Of a DNA stretch of 64,000 nt, positions 54,637 through 63,373 are shown piece by piece. The position numbers and the translations under genes were made by a program. Each line of letters begins with the position of its first letter. The stretch's first letter is position 1. The stretch is from Flavivirga jejuensis (GTDB lineage: Bacteria > Bacteroidota > Bacteroidia > Flavobacteriales > Flavobacteriaceae). Location of the stretch: the NCBI RefSeq assembly GCF_030540765.1, contig NZ_JAUOEL010000003.1:62001-126000 (forward strand), written 5' to 3'. The notes under the pieces were generated by a model that was not told the origin of the DNA, did no database searches, and was given only the letters and a program-made list of their open reading frames with translations.

Positions 54637-54887
54637 CTTCTCTTATAAAATTCCTAAAATAAGATATCCTTTTCGAAGCTTATTGTAGAAGTGTTTTAAT
54701 TTTTTCAATTGGCCACAAAATAGCTAATAATTTTATTCTAGATGGATGTCTTCTGTTAAATTTGAATTTTTTGAGTTAAAAACAAAAGTTGCATTCCATG
54801 ATAAAGAGAATAAAAAAATTCTTAAAATTGACTGTACCAGCCTTTGCCTGTAGGCAGGCACTCAATGTCTTTAAGTTAAGGCTAAAA

Positions 54888-55160
54888 TGTCAGTCTGAGA
54901 TGTGTGTTAAAAATTTTAACTAGCGGATGAAATGATGTAATTGGGATGTCATTCAGGAGGTACGACTTAAGAATCTTTAGAGATTAATTATATAGATTCT
55001 TCGCTGTGCTCCGAATGACAAACGATTGTAAATTAATCATTTATAAAATTCGTCAATGGTAACGCAATCGAAGACCTTATAACCATAGTTTTTAATAGCA
55101 TTTCGACTACGCTCACAGACAATTGAGGTGCTAAAAACTCTTAACTTAAAGACATTGAGC
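54888..55160. repeat. Dispersed repeat family R1, copy e
   Basis: TTTTAACTAGCGGATGAAATGA, the GATGTCATTCAGGAGGTACGACTTAAGAATC stretch and a damaged hairpin ending AGATTCTTCGCTG; then TTAACTTAAAGACATTGAG. Between 54637 and 55343 no gene is seen. Confidence 0.65.
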
Positions 55161-55343: not shown

Positions 55344-56870
55344 ATGAAAAAAATTATTAAAATACTCACAGTAACCGTTGTATGCTTTTCTGTTTTGGCT
55401 TTTTTTACAATTAAGAAAACTGAGTTTTCAAAATACAAACCCGTTAATACAGGGCACTCATTTGCTCCAATTACGTTTTCTTCAACAGTGCCAACAGATC
55501 CTAAAGGAGGCTATAATTCCAGCCCGGAAGAAATGGCAGAATTTGCCTGGCAAGAATTTATCGCTGTAAATTGGCCAGCAGCGACCAACTCTAATCCTGC
55601 TTCGTCTGGTTACAAACGTGGTACACCTTCTACAGCTACACTTGGAGCAACAGGGGCTGGAGGAACTGTTGTTTGGGAAACCTTTGCTCATAGAGTAGAA
55701 CTTTATCCTGGCCCACAAGGCCCTTTACCTGCTATAGAAGATGCTCCTATTAATTATCAATATCCTTCTTTTGTAACCATTACCCCCGGCCCTGGAGCAA
55801 CTAAAACGTTATTTAATAATTTAGACGAAGCAAGCGAGATTACTTTGGCTGATATGTATTATACGCCTATGATATCTCCAAATACTACAGATGCATCTTT
55901 ATTATATGAAGCTAAGGCGAATAATGTAATATATGATTATGTTAAAGACAATAGTTTTCAAAATCAAACAACCCGCAATAACGCTGCTGGAAATACCATG
56001 AAGAAGATTAACAATCAAACTTATGGAAGTCCTTTATTTGAACTCCCTAATGGCTCTGTAGAAATGAAAGCCACCTGGAGACGTTATGACCCAACAGCCG
56101 ACAATCTAGACGAATTTCATCATACAAAAGCTATTTGGTATTCGGGGAAGAGTCCTACCTTTCAAGTTCATAATGATATATTCTTATTAATAGGATTGCA
56201 TGTTATCCAAAAAACACCCGAATTCCAAACGTTTACATACGCAACATTTGAACATGTTTCAAACGAAAAAAATGGATTCCGATTTGTAAATACACATGCC
56301 GAAGTAGATAGCACAACCATACCAGGGCGTTCTATTCCAGAAGGAGGGGTTATTAAAGCCATTCGACAATATCCAATACCAGATGGTACAGATGGTTCTT
56401 TTAATTTGGTTGCTTACAATTCACAGGTTCAAAACCAATTGAAAACGCAATTTGGTAATGATATCGTATGGGCTAATTATCAACTTATCGGTATCCAAGG
56501 TCAAGTAACAAACAATCCAACGGCAGAAGTACCACCTCAAACGTTCTTTCTATCAAATTTTGTGACAGAAACAAACAATACACTTCAATTTTTCCAAGGG
56601 ACACTAACAGGAACATTTGCTAATATTGTTGACCCTAACACTCCTAAAGTACACAAGTTGGTAGAATCTGGTGGGACTTCAAAGTTTGAGGCATTCACTG
56701 CTGGTGGTTGTTTAGGTTGTCATGGATCTCAAGGACAAACCGGAGGTTATGACTTTAGTGTTATTTCTGCTAAAGGGAATTTCTTTATTCCTGAAGCTCC
56801 TGAAGATTATCCATCTGGGGTAAAAGTGGTAAACCAGAATTCACAAGGATTCCCTTTAAAACAAAACTAA
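55344..56870 (+). CDS. Secreted protein with a single c-type haem motif, CTQ-oxidase cluster
   Basis: 508 residues. An N-terminal hydrophobic segment (about 5-24) could be a signal peptide or anchor. It holds EMAEFAWQEFIAVNWPA, VVWETFAHRVELYPG, RRYDPTADNLDEFHHTKAIWYSG and, near the end, one CLGCH (Cys456, Cys459, His460), the covalent haem c motif. A c-type cytochrome next to a CTQ quinoprotein could accept electrons from it. The family is one I know only as uncharacterised cytochrome-like proteins. Starts a plus-strand run of four genes. Confidence 0.78.
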   Translation: MKKIIKILTVTVVCFSVLAFFTIKKTEFSKYKPVNTGHSFAPITFSSTVPTDPKGGYNSSPEEMAEFAWQEFIAVNWPAATNSNPASSGYKRGTPSTATLGATGAGGTVVWETFAHRVELYPGPQGPLPAIEDAPINYQYPSFVTITPGPGATKTLFNNLDEASEITLADMYYTPMISPNTTDASLLYEAKANNVIYDYVKDNSFQNQTTRNNAAGNTMKKINNQTYGSPLFELPNGSVEMKATWRRYDPTADNLDEFHHTKAIWYSGKSPTFQVHNDIFLLIGLHVIQKTPEFQTFTYATFEHVSNEKNGFRFVNTHAEVDSTTIPGRSIPEGGVIKAIRQYPIPDGTDGSFNLVAYNSQVQNQLKTQFGNDIVWANYQLIGIQGQVTNNPTAEVPPQTFFLSNFVTETNNTLQFFQGTLTGTFANIVDPNTPKVHKLVESGGTSKFEAFTAGGCLGCHGSQGQTGGYDFSVISAKGNFFIPEAPEDYPSGVKVVNQNSQGFPLKQN

Positions 56871-56913
56871 TTATTTCTAAACTAATTATTTCTAACTTTA
56901 AAATACAATTAAC

Positions 56914-57285
56914 ATGAGTACAGTAACAATTAACAGTTATGCAGATGTAACAACACAGCTAAACAATTTCGTGTCAGCAAACAGCCTTACTCCAGGACTA
57001 GCACAGCATGGTGCGTTTTGGACAACCTTAACCTATACGGAGTTCACAACAGGAACGGTTCCTGTTTATGGGATTCCTATCCTTGTTATAAATGATTCGG
57101 AAAATTCAAATATTATTCAGGTACTAAAAGGAGGTGCTGCCAATAAAACGGGATTCCCAGATATGCCAAAGCCAAGTCCTCCGTATAATTCAGAAATCCC
57201 AACTCAAACTGCTATTATTCAAGCATTATCTGACTGGATAGACAATGGCTGCCCTGAGTTTGCTAAAAACACTTATAATACATAA
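56914..57285 (+). CDS. Small protein of unknown function in the CTQ-oxidase cluster
   Basis: 123 residues, no signal peptide, starting 43 bases after the CxxCH gene. No family is recognised. It contains GLAQHGAFWTTLTYTEFTTG, a glycine/proline stretch (KGGAANKTGFPDMPKPSPPYNSE) and ends AIIQALSDWIDNGCPEF, which resembles the tail of some cytochrome-like and copper-enzyme partner domains. The single Cys is in that tail. Placement suggests a subunit or maturation partner of the oxidase. Confidence 0.7.
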   Translation: MSTVTINSYADVTTQLNNFVSANSLTPGLAQHGAFWTTLTYTEFTTGTVPVYGIPILVINDSENSNIIQVLKGGAANKTGFPDMPKPSPPYNSEIPTQTAIIQALSDWIDNGCPEFAKNTYNT

Positions 57286-57861
57286 TTACAACTATACATG
57301 CTAACACTTTAATAAAAAAATTATTAACGGCTTCTCATTATTTTAATGAAGCGTTTGTATAAAACGCTTTTAAGTTAAAGAATAAAAAGGTCAAACCTCA
57401 GGGCAAGCCCTGAACCCAATAATAGGAATCGACACAAGGGTCGAGGTATTAAACCTAGACCCTACTTTTAGCGGGATTAGTTCAACTTACAATTTTGAAT
57501 GCGTCTTACAGATTTCTCAAAATTGAGTTTTCCTGCCACGTAATAAGCGCGGACTAATAAAATTAATTTAAAGAAGATTTTCAACGAGTAATTTTTCATT
57601 GTGACAGTATAGTATTATTAAAGATAAGTTTATTACAAATTATAATAAACACTAAACCACCACTCCTATGGACTTCTAGTCCATAGGTTCGTTTTGGCAG
57701 ACTGAAAGTCTACTTCGAGATATACCAAAAGAATAAACATTGTAAAACTGAATTCCTGTGAATTCATGCCAAAAGTTTTTAGAAGTTGAAAGCGACATAC
57801 ACTTATGTTCATCCTTTTAAATACAGTTGCAACCAATAAATTAATATAAACAACAAAATTT
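57286..57861. other. Long gap inside the CTQ cluster, with hairpin
   Basis: No gene. CCTATGGACT/AGTCCATAGG around TCT (57665-57687) is a strong hairpin, followed by an AGACTGAAAGTCT hairpin of the kind in R3. The oxidase gene downstream probably has its own promoter. Confidence 0.5.
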
Positions 57862-59970
57862 ATGAGTAATGATTTAAATTTTAGAATTCACCCTGCTATT
57901 GGCATTGCCCGAGTGGGAAACAGTGATGAATACTATCTAGCTCCTGAAACAGCTGCTGGAGACACATCTGGTGACATTAGCGGCGGCTTACCTATAAAAA
58001 AAGGTACAGAATCAACTACGATTACCAGTGATGATTTACGTGATAATACCACCGAACAAAAATTTAAACGCCAGGCAGCACGTTTTAAAATTTATCAATA
58101 TGCTGCAATAACTGGAGAAGAGACATATCCTCTAGGTCCAGATGCTACCTTGCAAGAAGTTAAAATTGGCTCTAGTGTTAATGGGCAAATGGTTACAGAT
58201 ATTATTTGGTCTGTACATATGGCTAATAAAAAAGCCCAATTTTATGAGTCTGATCCTGCAGGAGGCGGGGGAGCCACAACATTTAGCAATGGTAATTTAC
58301 CGCCGTTAAGAAATCCCGATTATCCAACAGCAGGAGCGCCAGCAGCAGACCCACAACGTTTAAAATCACTATTCATTGATCCAGGACCACGTACAATATC
58401 TGGGGTAAATACACCAGCCGTTGCTTTTGATAAGGATACAACGGCATCTTATTATAACGATATAAGCAAGACTGTAAGTGAAATTGCCAACTATCCTAAA
58501 TCTTTTCCTGGTGATGCATTCAATGACCTCATAGAACCACAAGGTCCCATTACCTCTTTAGGAGAGCTTCAAACAGATGAATTTGGACGCTTGATCGTAA
58601 CTGGTGGTTATGGGAAATCGGCCAACTGGGGAAAACAGAAATTAACAGGTCCAGTAGATAACAATGGTTGGTTTGACGATGCAGGAGACGGCCCTGTTTC
58701 TGCAGTTATAGTATTAAGTGATGGCTCTCAATTAGCTGTACAAGGCAGTGCCTGGGTAGCAGCAACAGATCCATCATATGCCCCTCAGATAAAAAATGTC
58801 GTTTCTCTTTGGGAGGATATCTACGATGCATGGGTGCGTGATTTAAGATTGATTCCAGAATTGTATGATGGAACTTCTTTTAATGACAATTACATTCCAG
58901 GATTTGACAATCAAGTAACAGGAGTTTTTGAAGGTGCCGAACTCCAGCAATGGATTGCTAATCTTCCATTATACCCTGGGTCAACCTCTGGAGGAAATCC
59001 ACACGCTGGTCGTCCTACAACTTACAATAGCGGCTCGCCCACTAATAAATTCTTTACACTACTTAGAAACCCTAATCAAGATCAATTTGACATTTATGCT
59101 CCAGATGGTAGCCCATCGCCATACATGCCGTTAAGCCTTGGAGACTCTGGGCAAAGTTTCTTGAGTGTTACAAAAACACAATATTTCTTTTTAACGCAAT
59201 GGAGTTTAAAAAAATGTAATGAAACCTCTTCGGTATTGGGAGCGGGAGAACTACTGGATCAAAACACCCTTCTCAATTGTTTGGGAGGTCGTTTTAGTCC
59301 TGGTATTGATCTAACCTGGATAGTACGGAATAAGGATTTGTACATTGACGATTGGGAAAATTCCAATACGGGACCTTTTAGAATAAATTCCCAACAACTC
59401 GATTATGGAAATATAACACCTGGACAAGCCTTTTTAACAGAAGGTTATGTTCCTTTTCATTCCACAACAGGAATTCAACCTGGTGATATACTTAAACTAA
59501 TGGCCATACCATGGCATACTGATTATAACTCTTGTGCTAACCATCCACCTTCCACAAATGAAACTACAGTTTATCCAACATCAGCACCTCCTTCATACGG
59601 ACCGTCATCTTATGATGATTATAGTTTCTGGTCTTGGCCAGCCCAACGTCCAGTTGCGGTATTTACGAGCACCAAACCGTATACTGAGAAAGCTCAGTGG
59701 TTTACCTTAAGAGGCCCTGGAACAGATCCTATTAAAGATCCATCAGTACCAAAAAGTTCGGGAACACCTGAACAGAATGTGTGTCGTTACCAGTCCATCG
59801 AAGACATTATGACTAATTGGCAAAAAATAGGCGTAGTCATGGAAGCTACTACCATTGATGGGATCGACGATTTTGGTTATCCTACGGGTTGGTATCTGGA
59901 AGCAGAAAGTCAGTTTGAAGACGGTGAGTCTGTACCACCATGGCCAAATTTTTTACCAAAGTCTTCGTGA
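57862..59970 (+). CDS. LodA/GoxA-family CTQ-dependent oxidase
   Basis: 702 residues, no signal peptide, the usual length. It opens with the family signature FRIHPAIGIARVGNSDEYYLAPE. The cofactor region is conserved: DYNSC (Asp554, Cys558), like the Asp512/Cys516 pair of lysine oxidase LodA, and a tryptophan just before PAQRP (Trp592) as the likely cross-link partner; the Cys-Trp spacing is shorter than in LodA. Members oxidise the amino group of an amino acid, releasing H2O2 and NH3. The substrate is not predictable. LodB-like gene follows at 60452. Confidence 0.9.
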   Translation: MSNDLNFRIHPAIGIARVGNSDEYYLAPETAAGDTSGDISGGLPIKKGTESTTITSDDLRDNTTEQKFKRQAARFKIYQYAAITGEETYPLGPDATLQEVKIGSSVNGQMVTDIIWSVHMANKKAQFYESDPAGGGGATTFSNGNLPPLRNPDYPTAGAPAADPQRLKSLFIDPGPRTISGVNTPAVAFDKDTTASYYNDISKTVSEIANYPKSFPGDAFNDLIEPQGPITSLGELQTDEFGRLIVTGGYGKSANWGKQKLTGPVDNNGWFDDAGDGPVSAVIVLSDGSQLAVQGSAWVAATDPSYAPQIKNVVSLWEDIYDAWVRDLRLIPELYDGTSFNDNYIPGFDNQVTGVFEGAELQQWIANLPLYPGSTSGGNPHAGRPTTYNSGSPTNKFFTLLRNPNQDQFDIYAPDGSPSPYMPLSLGDSGQSFLSVTKTQYFFLTQWSLKKCNETSSVLGAGELLDQNTLLNCLGGRFSPGIDLTWIVRNKDLYIDDWENSNTGPFRINSQQLDYGNITPGQAFLTEGYVPFHSTTGIQPGDILKLMAIPWHTDYNSCANHPPSTNETTVYPTSAPPSYGPSSYDDYSFWSWPAQRPVAVFTSTKPYTEKAQWFTLRGPGTDPIKDPSVPKSSGTPEQNVCRYQSIEDIMTNWQKIGVVMEATTIDGIDDFGYPTGWYLEAESQFEDGESVPPWPNFLPKSS

Positions 59971-60451
59971 ATAATTTGAGTAATACGAAATAAAAAATTT
60001 CTTAAAGCCAGCTTCCCTTTGCCAGCCAGACAGGCTTGGGGTAAAGCCTGGAGAAATTCCTTTCGATTAAATAGATTTTAAGAATATGTGTTCCACGACT
60101 TGATTAGATACTCAATGTCGTGGAATATCTTTTTTATGTAGACATCTATTTTGTTTTTAACGTCAGTTCGATATATTAAATATTGATAATAAGCAATTTG
60201 CGCATATAAATAATAAAATTGTTCATTCCGAAGGCTATCAAAAACAAAATATATTTTGATTAAAGGTATGAAGCGTAGTTTTTGAGGAGGCATCTCAATT
60301 TTATGAGATATCTCCTCACTCATGCTTCGCTCTGTCGACATAACAAAACATGGTTTATCAGAAATATACATTATTTATCTTTTTTAATTTATGTCGAGTT
60401 TCACGTTTTTAATACTAGCTCTAATTTTAGGTTGAAAATGGTATTACTTAC
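59971..60451. other. Gap between the oxidase and flavoprotein genes, with hairpin
   Basis: No supported gene. Around 60225-60260 is an R1 fragment (AACAAAATATATTTTGAT) and at 60284-60317 a hairpin GAGGAGGCATCTCA / TGAGATATCTCCTC (12 of 14 paired). A 97-residue minus-strand frame here is not supported. Confidence 0.5.
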
Positions 60452-60481
60452 ATGGAGAGGAAAGATTACATTGAAACAGGT

Positions 60482-61618
60482 ATGAAAAAAACAAAACATT
60501 CAGAAAACTACGAGGTTGTCATTATTGGTGGTGGCCCTGCAGGAACAGCAACAGCAATTCAATTGGTTCGATTGGGAATACAATCGGTATTGATTGTAGA
60601 AAAAGGGAGTTATTCTGATAGTAAAATAGGAGAAAGCCTACCGCCGAACACCAATGTATTACTGCGGCAACTAGGCATATGGCATGCCTTTAAGTTGGAA
60701 GGGCATCTACAAGTGGGAGGTAGTTGTTCTATTTGGGGTAGTGCCGAATCTGGTTATAATGATTATTTTATCAATCCCCATGGATTGGGTTGGCATTTAG
60801 ATAGAAACAAGTTTGAACGTTTTCTCGCCAATCAAGCCTGTAAATTAGGAGCTGAATTACGAACAAAAACACTATTTGAAAGCATTGTTTCTGAAACCAA
60901 TACAGGTTTTTGTTTAGAAATTCAAAATGAAAAAAAAGAAACAACCAAGATTCAGGCACGTTTTGTGGTAGATGCCAGTGGAGCTCATGCTATATTCGCT
61001 AGAAAAAGAGGGCCTTCTAAAAACATCCTTGATCGTTTGATCTTTCTTTCTGGTTTCATTGAGATACCTAATGCCGTCAACTTTAGTTCGCTTACTATGT
61101 TAGAAGCTGTTGAATATGGCTGGTGGTATTTTGCGGTTTTACCTGGCAAACGTGTTATTGCCGCCTTAGCAACAGATCCAGAAGTTGTTAACAAATATGA
61201 ATTGACTAAGCCTGAGCACTGGCTGGCACTCTTAAGAGAAACCAAAGTATTGCCTTTGCAGTTAAAACCGCACTTAAACCTATGCGAAAAAATAATAGCA
61301 AGTCCTGCTTTATCATCTTCCCTACCACAACCTTGTGGTCCAAATTGGTTGGCTGTTGGTGATGCCGCTTCTTCCTACGATCCTATTTGTTCTCTTGGTA
61401 TTCATAAAGGTTTGCTAACAGGTATGGAGGCAGCAAAGACCATTACGGAAATCTTAAATAACTCGAACGAAAATGCTTTAAAAAACTATCACGATTTTCT
61501 AGAAACCGATTTTAAAAAATACAAAAAAAGCAGAGATTATTTTTATGGATTGGAAAATCGTTGGGCACATTCTCCTTTTTGGAATCGAAGGAAAAACCCT
61601 AATCATATACTATCATAA
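60482..61618 (+). CDS. LodB-like FAD-dependent protein for CTQ formation
   Basis: 378 residues from ATG 60482 (MKKTKHSENYEVVIIGGGPAGTATAIQL); an upstream ATG at 60452 in frame would add 10 residues and cannot be ruled out. Dinucleotide-binding GGGPAG at about 16-21, VDASG near 165, and the halogenase-type flavin motif GDAASSYDPICSLGIHKG. In Marinomonas, LodB is required to make the cysteine tryptophylquinone of LodA. Here the partner is the gene at 57862, with a 481-base gap rather than the usual tight spacing. Confidence 0.88.
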   Translation: MKKTKHSENYEVVIIGGGPAGTATAIQLVRLGIQSVLIVEKGSYSDSKIGESLPPNTNVLLRQLGIWHAFKLEGHLQVGGSCSIWGSAESGYNDYFINPHGLGWHLDRNKFERFLANQACKLGAELRTKTLFESIVSETNTGFCLEIQNEKKETTKIQARFVVDASGAHAIFARKRGPSKNILDRLIFLSGFIEIPNAVNFSSLTMLEAVEYGWWYFAVLPGKRVIAALATDPEVVNKYELTKPEHWLALLRETKVLPLQLKPHLNLCEKIIASPALSSSLPQPCGPNWLAVGDAASSYDPICSLGIHKGLLTGMEAAKTITEILNNSNENALKNYHDFLETDFKKYKKSRDYFYGLENRWAHSPFWNRRKNPNHILS

Positions 61619-62041: not shown

Positions 62042-63373
62042 ATGAAAAAAAATGAATTTTTTTTTAAGAAAAAATATTGCTTAAATGCTTTATTTATTGC
62101 CCTATTACTTCTGGTAACAAATTGTTCCAATGAAAATCTCGCTCTTGAGGCCACAAATGATGTTGAGCAAGTAGTTGACGAAAACACAAAAATCCCTTCT
62201 ACTGCTAAATCCGATAAATCTGTTAAGATGTCGATTAATTCGGTTTCTGCCAGTGCACAACATAGCTCTACTTACTCTGCAGCAAAAGCCACAGATGGCA
62301 ATTTAAATACGCGGTGGACTGCCAATGGAACTGTATATTTATATTTAGATCTTGGTTCTACAGCATTAATTGATTATGTTAAAATTGCACATCATGCAGG
62401 AAATAGCAGGGTATACAAAATGAAGTTCCATGTACGTAATTCAACTAGTGGCAGTTGGAATCTTGTTGGAACTAAATCGAGTCCAGGCAATACTAGTAAT
62501 TTTTATGATTACGACCTTGTTAACAGTAATAACAGATACATGAGAGTTACATGTACTGGTAATTCTTCAAATGGTTATAGTGATATCAAAGAGATAGAAC
62601 TTTGGGGAACACCTGGTGGCGGTACTACTCCTCCTCCTAGCGGTTCAGCTAAAGATATTTTAGGTGGCCTCACAAATTGGAAGTTAAATGCATATTCTGG
62701 TTCTCTTAATGTAGGCAGTAGCAACAATGGGCTGTCTTATGTTGACAGTGCATCAAAAAATGACAACTCAGGTTGGTTTTATGGCTCTAACGGATTTGCT
62801 TATTTTAAAACGTACCCAGGTAATCCAACAAGTGGAGGTTCGTCTAATCCAAGAACCGAATTAAGAGAAATGACTTCAAACGGTTCTTCCACAATACATT
62901 GGGATGGCACCACTAGTACGGAACATTCAATGAAATGGACCGTTAGGGTAGATGATTTACCACCATCTGGAAAGGTATGTTTTGGTCAAATTCATGCAGA
63001 AAGTGGCTCATCTTATGATGACATCCTCCGAGTTCAAGTACAAGGAAGTAGTGGACAAAATTCTGGCTCTGTAACATTGAGGCTTCTAGGGTATGCTACT
63101 GAGGAATTATTAGGTAGTGGACAGTCCATTAATTTCAATTTTAATATGGACACCGCTTATTCTTTTGAATTGGCCATGAAAAATAAAATCGTAAAACTTT
63201 ATGCATTAAATTCTAGTGGTTCAAGAACGAGTACTCTTTTTACTTCAGGAAGTATAAATTCTGATGGCAACTATTTTAAAGTGGGATGTTATTTACAGTC
63301 TACATCTAGTAGCCATAGTGGTTCTTCTGTTTATGGGTTAGTGGGAATTTCATCTCTTAGCGTTTCCCATTAA
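62042..63373 (+). CDS. CBM32 / PL7 alginate lyase lipoprotein
   Basis: 443 residues with lipobox LLLVTNC (Cys28). A discoidin/CBM32 domain (about 62-188), a GGGTTPPPSGS linker and a PL7 domain (about 205-443) follow. The three PL7 motifs are intact: RTELREM (from Arg271), QIH (316-318) and YFKVGCYLQ (from Tyr411). QIH is the variant linked to guluronate-containing blocks. A cell-surface enzyme that feeds the KDG pathway encoded at 9.2-12.2 kb. No neighbour in the same operon is seen. Confidence 0.93.
   Translation: MKKNEFFFKKKYCLNALFIALLLLVTNCSNENLALEATNDVEQVVDENTKIPSTAKSDKSVKMSINSVSASAQHSSTYSAAKATDGNLNTRWTANGTVYLYLDLGSTALIDYVKIAHHAGNSRVYKMKFHVRNSTSGSWNLVGTKSSPGNTSNFYDYDLVNSNNRYMRVTCTGNSSNGYSDIKEIELWGTPGGGTTPPPSGSAKDILGGLTNWKLNAYSGSLNVGSSNNGLSYVDSASKNDNSGWFYGSNGFAYFKTYPGNPTSGGSSNPRTELREMTSNGSSTIHWDGTTSTEHSMKWTVRVDDLPPSGKVCFGQIHAESGSSYDDILRVQVQGSSGQNSGSVTLRLLGYATEELLGSGQSINFNFNMDTAYSFELAMKNKIVKLYALNSSGSRTSTLFTSGSINSDGNYFKVGCYLQSTSSSHSGSSVYGLVGISSLSVSH

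Follow-up and report, generated by a model that had tools for sequence, protein, structure and literature searches.

A LodA-like gene cluster of Flavivirga jejuensis with a candidate haem partner from a family without a name

Can an enzyme of the LodA type, with its cysteine tryptophylquinone (CTQ) cofactor, be served by a haem protein encoded beside it? This question is raised by a four-gene cluster in a stretch of 64,000 nucleotides of Flavivirga jejuensis (contig NZ_JAUOEL010000003.1, positions 62,001 to 126,000; hereafter the window), which an earlier note had described as a CTQ oxidase cluster with a CxxCH protein and a small protein. The list of open reading frames (ORFs) in the window and the domain matches bear this description out, and all four ORFs lie on the + strand where the note had placed them. 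The haem protein belongs to a family whose genes recur in genomes and in gene clusters with LodA-like genes, and the small protein is related to a domain of tyrosinases encoded in lodA operons. We favour the reading, at a probability of roughly 0.45, that a CTQ oxidoreductase for amines or amino acids is encoded here along with an adaptor and a redox partner that contains haem. The new element in this reading would be that a LodA/LodB system has a recurrent partner, a haem protein whose family has no name. The features of the cluster are the following:

55344..56870, + strand: ORF of the 508-residue haem protein (ORF list)
56709..56723, + strand: CxxCH haem-attachment motif, C456 to H460 (sequence)
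56914..57285, + strand: ORF of the 123-residue protein (ORF list)
57286..57861, no strand: gap of 576 bp from the 123-residue gene to lodA, without an ORF of at least 80 residues
57862..59970, + strand: 702-residue LodA-like CTQ oxidoreductase (LodA_N and LodA_C; matches to 2ymw and 3weu)
59521..59535, + strand: codons of D554 and C558, the latter being the predicted CTQ cysteine (alignment to C516 of 3weu)
59635..59637, + strand: codon of W592, the predicted CTQ tryptophan (alignment to W581 of 3weu)
60452..61618, + strand: 388-residue putative flavoprotein maturase, LodB/GoxB-like (matches to NF038171 and NF038174)

The 702-residue protein matched the Pfam families LodA_N (3.4e-52) and LodA_C (1.1e-34), both above their cut-offs, and the solved L-lysine 6-oxidase structures 2ymw and 3weu at about 1e-42. 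When a profile of ten LodA-like proteins was aligned to 3weu, C558 paired with C516, W592 with W581 and D554 with D512 of LodA, as numbered by counting along the printed alignment. C516 and W581 of LodA are described as its cofactor residues (PMC4417212). D554, C558 and W592 are invariant in the ten aligned proteins, and W592 also across three diverse LodA-like proteins; these residues, named by the note in support of cofactor formation, stand at the positions that it gave. The 388-residue protein scored 271.8 bits with the LodB model NF038171 and 223.8 bits with the GoxB model NF038174, both below the cut-off of 400. Moreover, a LodB gene lies near lodA in 18 of the 19 LodA loci considered below, the contig ending with lodA in the remaining one, L126 (loci and genomes carry L and G numbers here). 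On its LodA domains, its CTQ residues and the LodB-like gene nearby, the cluster is classed as LodA-like. Measured against the NCBIfam equivalog cut-offs, the enzyme was rejected as an L-lysine 6-oxidase proper (239.7 bits, cut-off 600) and as a glycine oxidase GoxA proper (160 bits, cut-off 750), so that these models assign it no substrate. The same genome has a second LodA-like gene (L025:8506-12964, contig 12, 1078 residues), which is followed by a LodB-like gene and has no member of the haem family nearby. The N-terminal 370 residues of this second protein gave no Pfam match at 0.01, and a catalase domain, considered for this extension, was set aside on that ground.

Besides a single CxxCH motif, the 508-residue protein has an N-terminus that is hydrophobic; in Pfam and NCBIfam, nothing matched it above cut-off. 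Its highest 15-residue Kyte-Doolittle mean is 2.63, the values for LodA and for the 123-residue protein being 0.65 and 0.48, and a hydrophobic stretch within the first 70 residues was found in 43 of 46 proteins of its family. The note had called this protein secreted: the hydrophobic N-terminus stood, and nothing beyond it did, Kyte-Doolittle hydropathy being a crude stand-in for signal-peptide prediction. Relatives were found by protein search in 10 of 397 family-level genomes and by profile search in 24 of 395 class-level genomes, own genome included in both, and a contig scan with a ten-row haem alignment confirmed at least 246 relatives, from which the top 80 were retained. The CxxCH motif is present in all 83 matches of a ten-member profile (duplicates included, in the loci fetched by then) and, with a larger profile, in 92 of 93 distinct relatives, the remaining one having CxxxCH; these 93 come from loci of at least 5 kb and leave out the window's own copy. 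In 46 aligned members, P50, W69, K242, H286, Y379, N405, E409 and the Cys and His residues of the haem motif are invariant. An AlphaFold2 model of the protein was fair (pLDDT 76.9, pTM 0.82). The host has two open frames, each with ResB and CcsA domains, so that it can probably attach haem c. From its sequence, the 508-residue protein may be described as a predicted monohaem c-type protein of a family without a name.

Two observations on this family may be recorded here. The own genome holds a second haem-family gene (L024:9232-10686, contig 23, 484 residues), about 85 kb before the window copy and with no obvious oxidase neighbour. Haem-family proteins of about 575-590 residues with two CxxCH motifs are encoded in L016:8836-10569, L045 and L064, the last two being assigned to this type by likeness to L016, in which the second CxxCH lies within an added C-terminal cytochrome P460 domain (1.8e-11).

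Does the haem family travel with LodA? LodA_N and the haem family were each searched in 395 class-level genomes, which we took as one draw because of their shared identifiers. LodA_N was found in 11 of them, and the haem family in 9 of these 11 genomes as compared to 15 of the 384 without LodA; nine genomes have both, where 0.7 would be expected (Fisher p 1.1e-10, with genome size, lifestyle and relatedness uncontrolled). Four of the nine double-positive genomes (the window's own, G408, G427 and G639) have both genes in one cluster, and in G757 they lie at most 5.5 kb apart on the same strand. From the LodA side, 19 LodA loci of 16 genomes were collected in class and phylum draws, window included: the haem gene lies in the same-strand lodA cluster in five (the window, L122, L123, L124 and L182), and about 5.5 kb from lodA in L120. 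The note had looked to co-occurrence of the four genes across genomes; the pair of haem family and LodA did recur, and the exact four-gene set was found, among the loci examined, in the window only.

This recurrence bears on the alternative that the four genes lie side by side and have no link in function. The genes are 43, 576 and 481 bp apart, a loose spacing for which the repeat analysis of the window offered no account, and a single transcript for all four is therefore not certain. Such spacing would suit unconnected neighbours, as would the restriction of the exact set to the window and the lack of LodA in the stretches read around L026 and L027, to which the window haem protein is most closely related. 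The co-occurrence and repeated linkage of LodA and haem genes argue the other way, as does the relation of the small protein to lodA-operon tyrosinases, and we consider a chance neighbourhood very improbable.

A midpoint-rooted LodA tree of 23 rows has its haem-linked loci in three groups. They make up 2 of 4 loci in the window group, 7 of 8 in a tyrosinase-operon group and 4 of 4 in a long-LodA group. These counts are biased by discovery via the haem gene, which holds for all four long-LodA loci and for L018, L036, L069 and L093; among the tyrosinase-operon loci found from the LodA side only, 3 of 4 are haem-linked. On a haem tree of 57 rows, the LodA label must be gained or lost 6 times, with at least 5 of these changes forced by well-supported branches, and LodA linkage has therefore been gained or lost repeatedly. 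The window LodA and its nearest relative, L123, have haem neighbours from different haem subfamilies, the L123 haem branch being long, which points to separate recruitment. For the window LodA clade, the families of G408 (one genome) and G599 (thirteen genomes) gave no new LodA locus.

The haem family is not LodA-specific. We classed the 93 haem genes, a set picked by haem similarity and not a random sample, by their neighbours within 6 kb on either strand: a GMC enzyme is near 27 of them, a tyrosinase near 13 (without LodA in 5), LodA near 12 (with a tyrosinase as well in 8, L120 included) and a 600-residue family without Pfam match near 8. The idea of a haem partner specific to CTQ enzymes was therefore not borne out, and the haem protein looks rather like a redox partner that can be reused. 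The strongest hint of electron transfer is the layout of L183, where a small subunit of the FAD-SLDH type (PF12318, 3.5e-7) and a GMC enzyme are encoded after the haem gene. Flavin adenine dinucleotide (FAD) dehydrogenases of the three-part kind have, as their third part, a cytochrome c that accepts the electrons, and by analogy the L183 layout would indicate such a role for the haem family. The small protein of L059 that corresponds to the L183 subunit gave no Pfam match at 0.01.

The range of neighbours also bears on two other explanations. The haem protein might aid CTQ formation, much as tryptophan tryptophylquinone is made with the help of MauG. For quinohaemoprotein amine dehydrogenase (QHNDH), it has been proposed that c-type haems act in the final cofactor oxidation (PMC7876137). 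Such a role is improbable here, given that the haem family also stands with enzymes that lack CTQ, namely tyrosinases and GMC enzymes, and that no haem gene was found in 13 of the 19 LodA loci in the stretch read, some being cut by contig ends. Alternatively, the haem protein might be a separate enzyme in a pathway that it shares with LodA, having the same substrate or product as its target while no electrons pass between the two. The variety of neighbours, among them the 600-residue family (8 of 93) and a glycosidase of family GH31 (3 of 93), and the many haem genes without an oxidase neighbour would be in line with this; a redox module is, however, easier to picture for one family placed with unrelated substrates, and tyrosinase, LodA and haem loci are linked by a shared small domain. 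We hold a separate enzyme to be distinctly unlikely, more so than the peroxide-based alternative weighed below and less so than a part in CTQ formation.

Other neighbours of the family deserve mention. Members of the 600-residue family, about 540-710 residues long, are encoded directly beside the haem gene in 8 of the 93 haem loci, among them L019:7571-9400, L022:10910-12724, L172, L173, L174, L175 and L176, and the two members scanned had no Pfam match. GH31 genes lie directly after the haem gene in L053:6960-9833, L066:11576-14437 and L098:11619-14393, the assignment resting on a Pfam scan for L066 and on likeness for L053 and L098. Many tyrosinase/haem loci also have a membrane protein of 140-155 residues with a Cys-rich start (for example L018:8302-8748, L021:8631-9095, L027:7875-8339 and L093:11692-12126), which is weakly MerC-like, below cut-offs, and is missing from the window cluster.

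What, then, is the small protein? The note had taken the 123-residue protein to be of unknown type; relatives do exist. A profile of six N-termini of lodA-operon tyrosinases matched it at 1.3e-8 among 2419 ORFs and at 1.6e-9 in a second ORF set, and hhalign gave a probability of 97.5% for its comparison with the tyrosinase N-terminal domain. The link emerged solely from this tyrosinase-side profile; a two-sequence profile of the small protein found copies of itself and one homologue, in L027, only. By these profile matches, the 123-residue protein is what lodA-operon tyrosinases carry as their N-terminal domain, here in free-standing form, and the central copper domain of tyrosinase (PF00264) gave no Pfam match in it. 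In the ten-row alignment A5, Y9, F35, W36, G53, S65, L71, G74, P82, D83, P87, I102, W108 and I109 do not vary, and Y52, G112, C113 and P114 are almost invariant. In the tyrosinases the domain has a long variable insert, Cys-rich in several, which the window version does not have.

The homologue, from L027 of Mucilaginibacter rigui, has 122 residues, is 55% identical to the window protein and is encoded directly after a haem gene that is itself about 50% identical to the window haem protein. The tyrosinase of this locus (534 residues) has its copper domain from residue 45 and is without the N-terminal domain, and no LodA was found within the 21.6-kb locus. With L027 and the tyrosinase fusion pattern taken together, the window appears to be a lodA cluster in which the tyrosinase N-terminal domain stands alone as a separate gene. 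The fusion pattern leads us to infer an adaptor role for the 123-residue protein, and its kinship with a tyrosinase domain would offer a concrete docking hypothesis.

Several other candidates for this domain were set aside. A haem-less cytochrome-c-like domain, considered by eye, was dropped as the model of the small protein (pLDDT 70.5) gave no match. ORFs of 83-85 residues after the haem genes of L034 and L043 are related to the N-termini of tyrosinases of another type (L021 and L086), and the hhalign probability that these represent the window small domain was only 27%. The tail of the L126 LodA gave no profile match as a fused copy. A tyrosinase sought elsewhere in the own genome gave no match, yet the control also gave none, so that its absence is not shown.

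In the reading that we favour, the LodA-like protein, matured by the LodB-like flavoprotein, would oxidise an amine and be left with reduced CTQ. The membrane-anchored monohaem protein might accept the electrons, directly or partly alongside O2, and pass them on, and the 123-residue protein would be the adaptor that joins enzyme and haem protein. In other genomes, the haem family would be a module paired with tyrosinases, GMC flavoenzymes and other enzymes. This reading starts from the gene content, the CTQ residues, the recurrent linkage and the kinship of small protein and tyrosinase; it would entail haem binding, electron transfer, docking and a shared compartment.

Several observations weigh against it. 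The main difficulty, which also touches the electron transfer to the respiratory chain that the note had suggested, is that, by the crude hydropathy measure, the compartments of LodA and of the haem protein do not obviously agree: the haem protein has a signal-like N-terminus and LodA has none, and the same lack is seen in nine further LodA-like proteins and in 8 of 9 tyrosinases (the exception being L033). A real partnership would therefore require either an indirect link or a route of export that has gone unrecognised. Linkage is also far from general, with the haem gene lying away from LodA in four of the nine double-positive genomes (G127, G320, G480 and G599) and the 13 LodA loci without a haem gene. 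Conservation of the haem protein within the genus is poor, two same-genus genomes searched having given no match. Among the 93 haem genes, 38 have no neighbour of the five partner types, although 27 of these were read with at least 6 kb on both sides, and the GH31 glycosidase beside three is not an oxidoreductase. Foldseek with the haem-protein model found no PDB match at E<=0.001 (best 0.6). Finally, the known LodA and GoxA use O2.

The LodA-like protein might indeed be an ordinary oxidase that uses O2 and makes hydrogen peroxide, with the haem protein consuming or using the peroxide in a peroxidase- or peroxygenase-like manner. Enzymes of the LodA family have been described as oxidases that make peroxide and have antimicrobial effects, peroxide being the product of the known LodA, and fusions of LodA with catalase-type domains appear in Table 3 of the same source (PMC4417212). 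Iron or haem modules also accompany other LodA-like proteins in our set: the protein of L126:3-3929, which reaches the contig end, is fused to Haem_oxygenas_2 (PF14518, 1.6e-20), and a ferritin-like gene (PF12902) lies immediately before lodA in L125. Moreover, the invariant H286 and K242 of the haem family are possibly catalytic. The layout of GMC enzyme and small subunit indicates electron transfer instead, the extension of the second LodA of the own genome shows no catalase match, and peroxide would not be an expected product of a tyrosinase. We judge the peroxide explanation to be unlikely.

The favoured reading of an oxidoreductase with haem partner and adaptor may be taken one step further. 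The enzyme might be a CTQ amine dehydrogenase and not an oxidase, a member of the LodA family wired to the haem protein via a docking domain shared with tyrosinases, with the haem family as a plug-in electron acceptor repeatedly attached to quinone, copper and flavin enzymes. This more specific proposal is tentative, and less probable than the general one. If the recurrent haem partner is true, some LodA enzymes would send their electrons elsewhere, and their likely biology would change. Since no family model matches above cut-off, the CxxCH motif is near-strict and links to unrelated oxidoreductases are repeated, biochemical work on a single pair might hint at what many unannotated genes do, the family counting at least 246 relatives.

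Around the cluster, a perfect 20-nt inverted repeat lies upstream of the haem gene (arms 54861-54880 and 55140-55159, 259 nt apart), and a CBM9 protein and a LacI-type regulator are encoded on the 5' side. Directly 3' of the cluster is an alginate lyase (PF08787) with an F5/8 type C domain, at 62042-63373.

How does the cluster compare with known systems? The parallel to QHNDH drawn by the note did not hold up as homology. Both have the CTQ cofactor and a c-haem protein in the gene cluster; the alpha subunit of QHNDH, however, has two haems (PMC7876137), and the window protein has one CxxCH. The QHNDH haem domain (Dehyd-heme_bind) had no Pfam match in the window protein, and one of 46 relatives matched at E 0.2. 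A QHNDH-like haem subunit was rejected on these two grounds, and the sole similarity of QHNDH type that we saw is that of the 388-residue flavoprotein to QhpG (164 bits, below the cut-off of 240).

As regards cytochrome P460, the haem family shares with it a CxxCH near the C-terminus and a G-S-x-x-x-K stretch. The P460 family PF16694 had no Pfam match in the window haem protein; matches at 0.5 or better were found in 4 of 46 relatives, L016 among them, and the L123 haem protein matched weakly (0.0021). The hhalign profile comparison was not significant over the domain, and the Foldseek listing was without P460. With Pfam, a PDB profile search, hhalign and Foldseek considered together, a P460 fold for the family is suggestive at two motifs and not significant.

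With LodA/LodB of Marinomonas mediterranea, an L-lysine 6-oxidase and its maturase, and with GoxA/GoxB, the cluster shares the LodA_N and LodA_C domains, the CTQ residues and a LodB-like flavoprotein gene downstream. It differs from them in scoring below both equivalog cut-offs, in the 481 bp between lodA and lodB and in having the haem and 123-residue proteins upstream. Operons of lodA, a small gene (138-142 residues) and lodB with tyrosinases and multicopper oxidases have been reported (PMC4417212; legend of Fig. 1B, Bradyrhizobium), and the window resembles these in having LodA and LodB with a tyrosinase-related sequence; the main text of that paper contains no word starting with 'cytochrome'. 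Bacteroidota operons such as L018, L093, L124 and L182 have the order tyrosinase, lodA, a gene of 147-159 residues, lodB and then the haem gene. The window, in contrast, is without the 148-residue gene and has the tyrosinase N-terminal domain only, as its own gene. Among the open-access matches listed, no title or opening of an abstract linked a haem protein to LodA, and an open-access literature search found no paper on a GMC enzyme, a small subunit and a cytochrome jointly.

The three-subunit membrane FAD dehydrogenases of the sorbitol/gluconate type have a cytochrome subunit with three haems. The haem relatives that stand with GMC enzymes, and above all L183 with its PF12318 subunit, resemble these dehydrogenases, whereas in the window a CTQ enzyme takes the place of the GMC enzyme.

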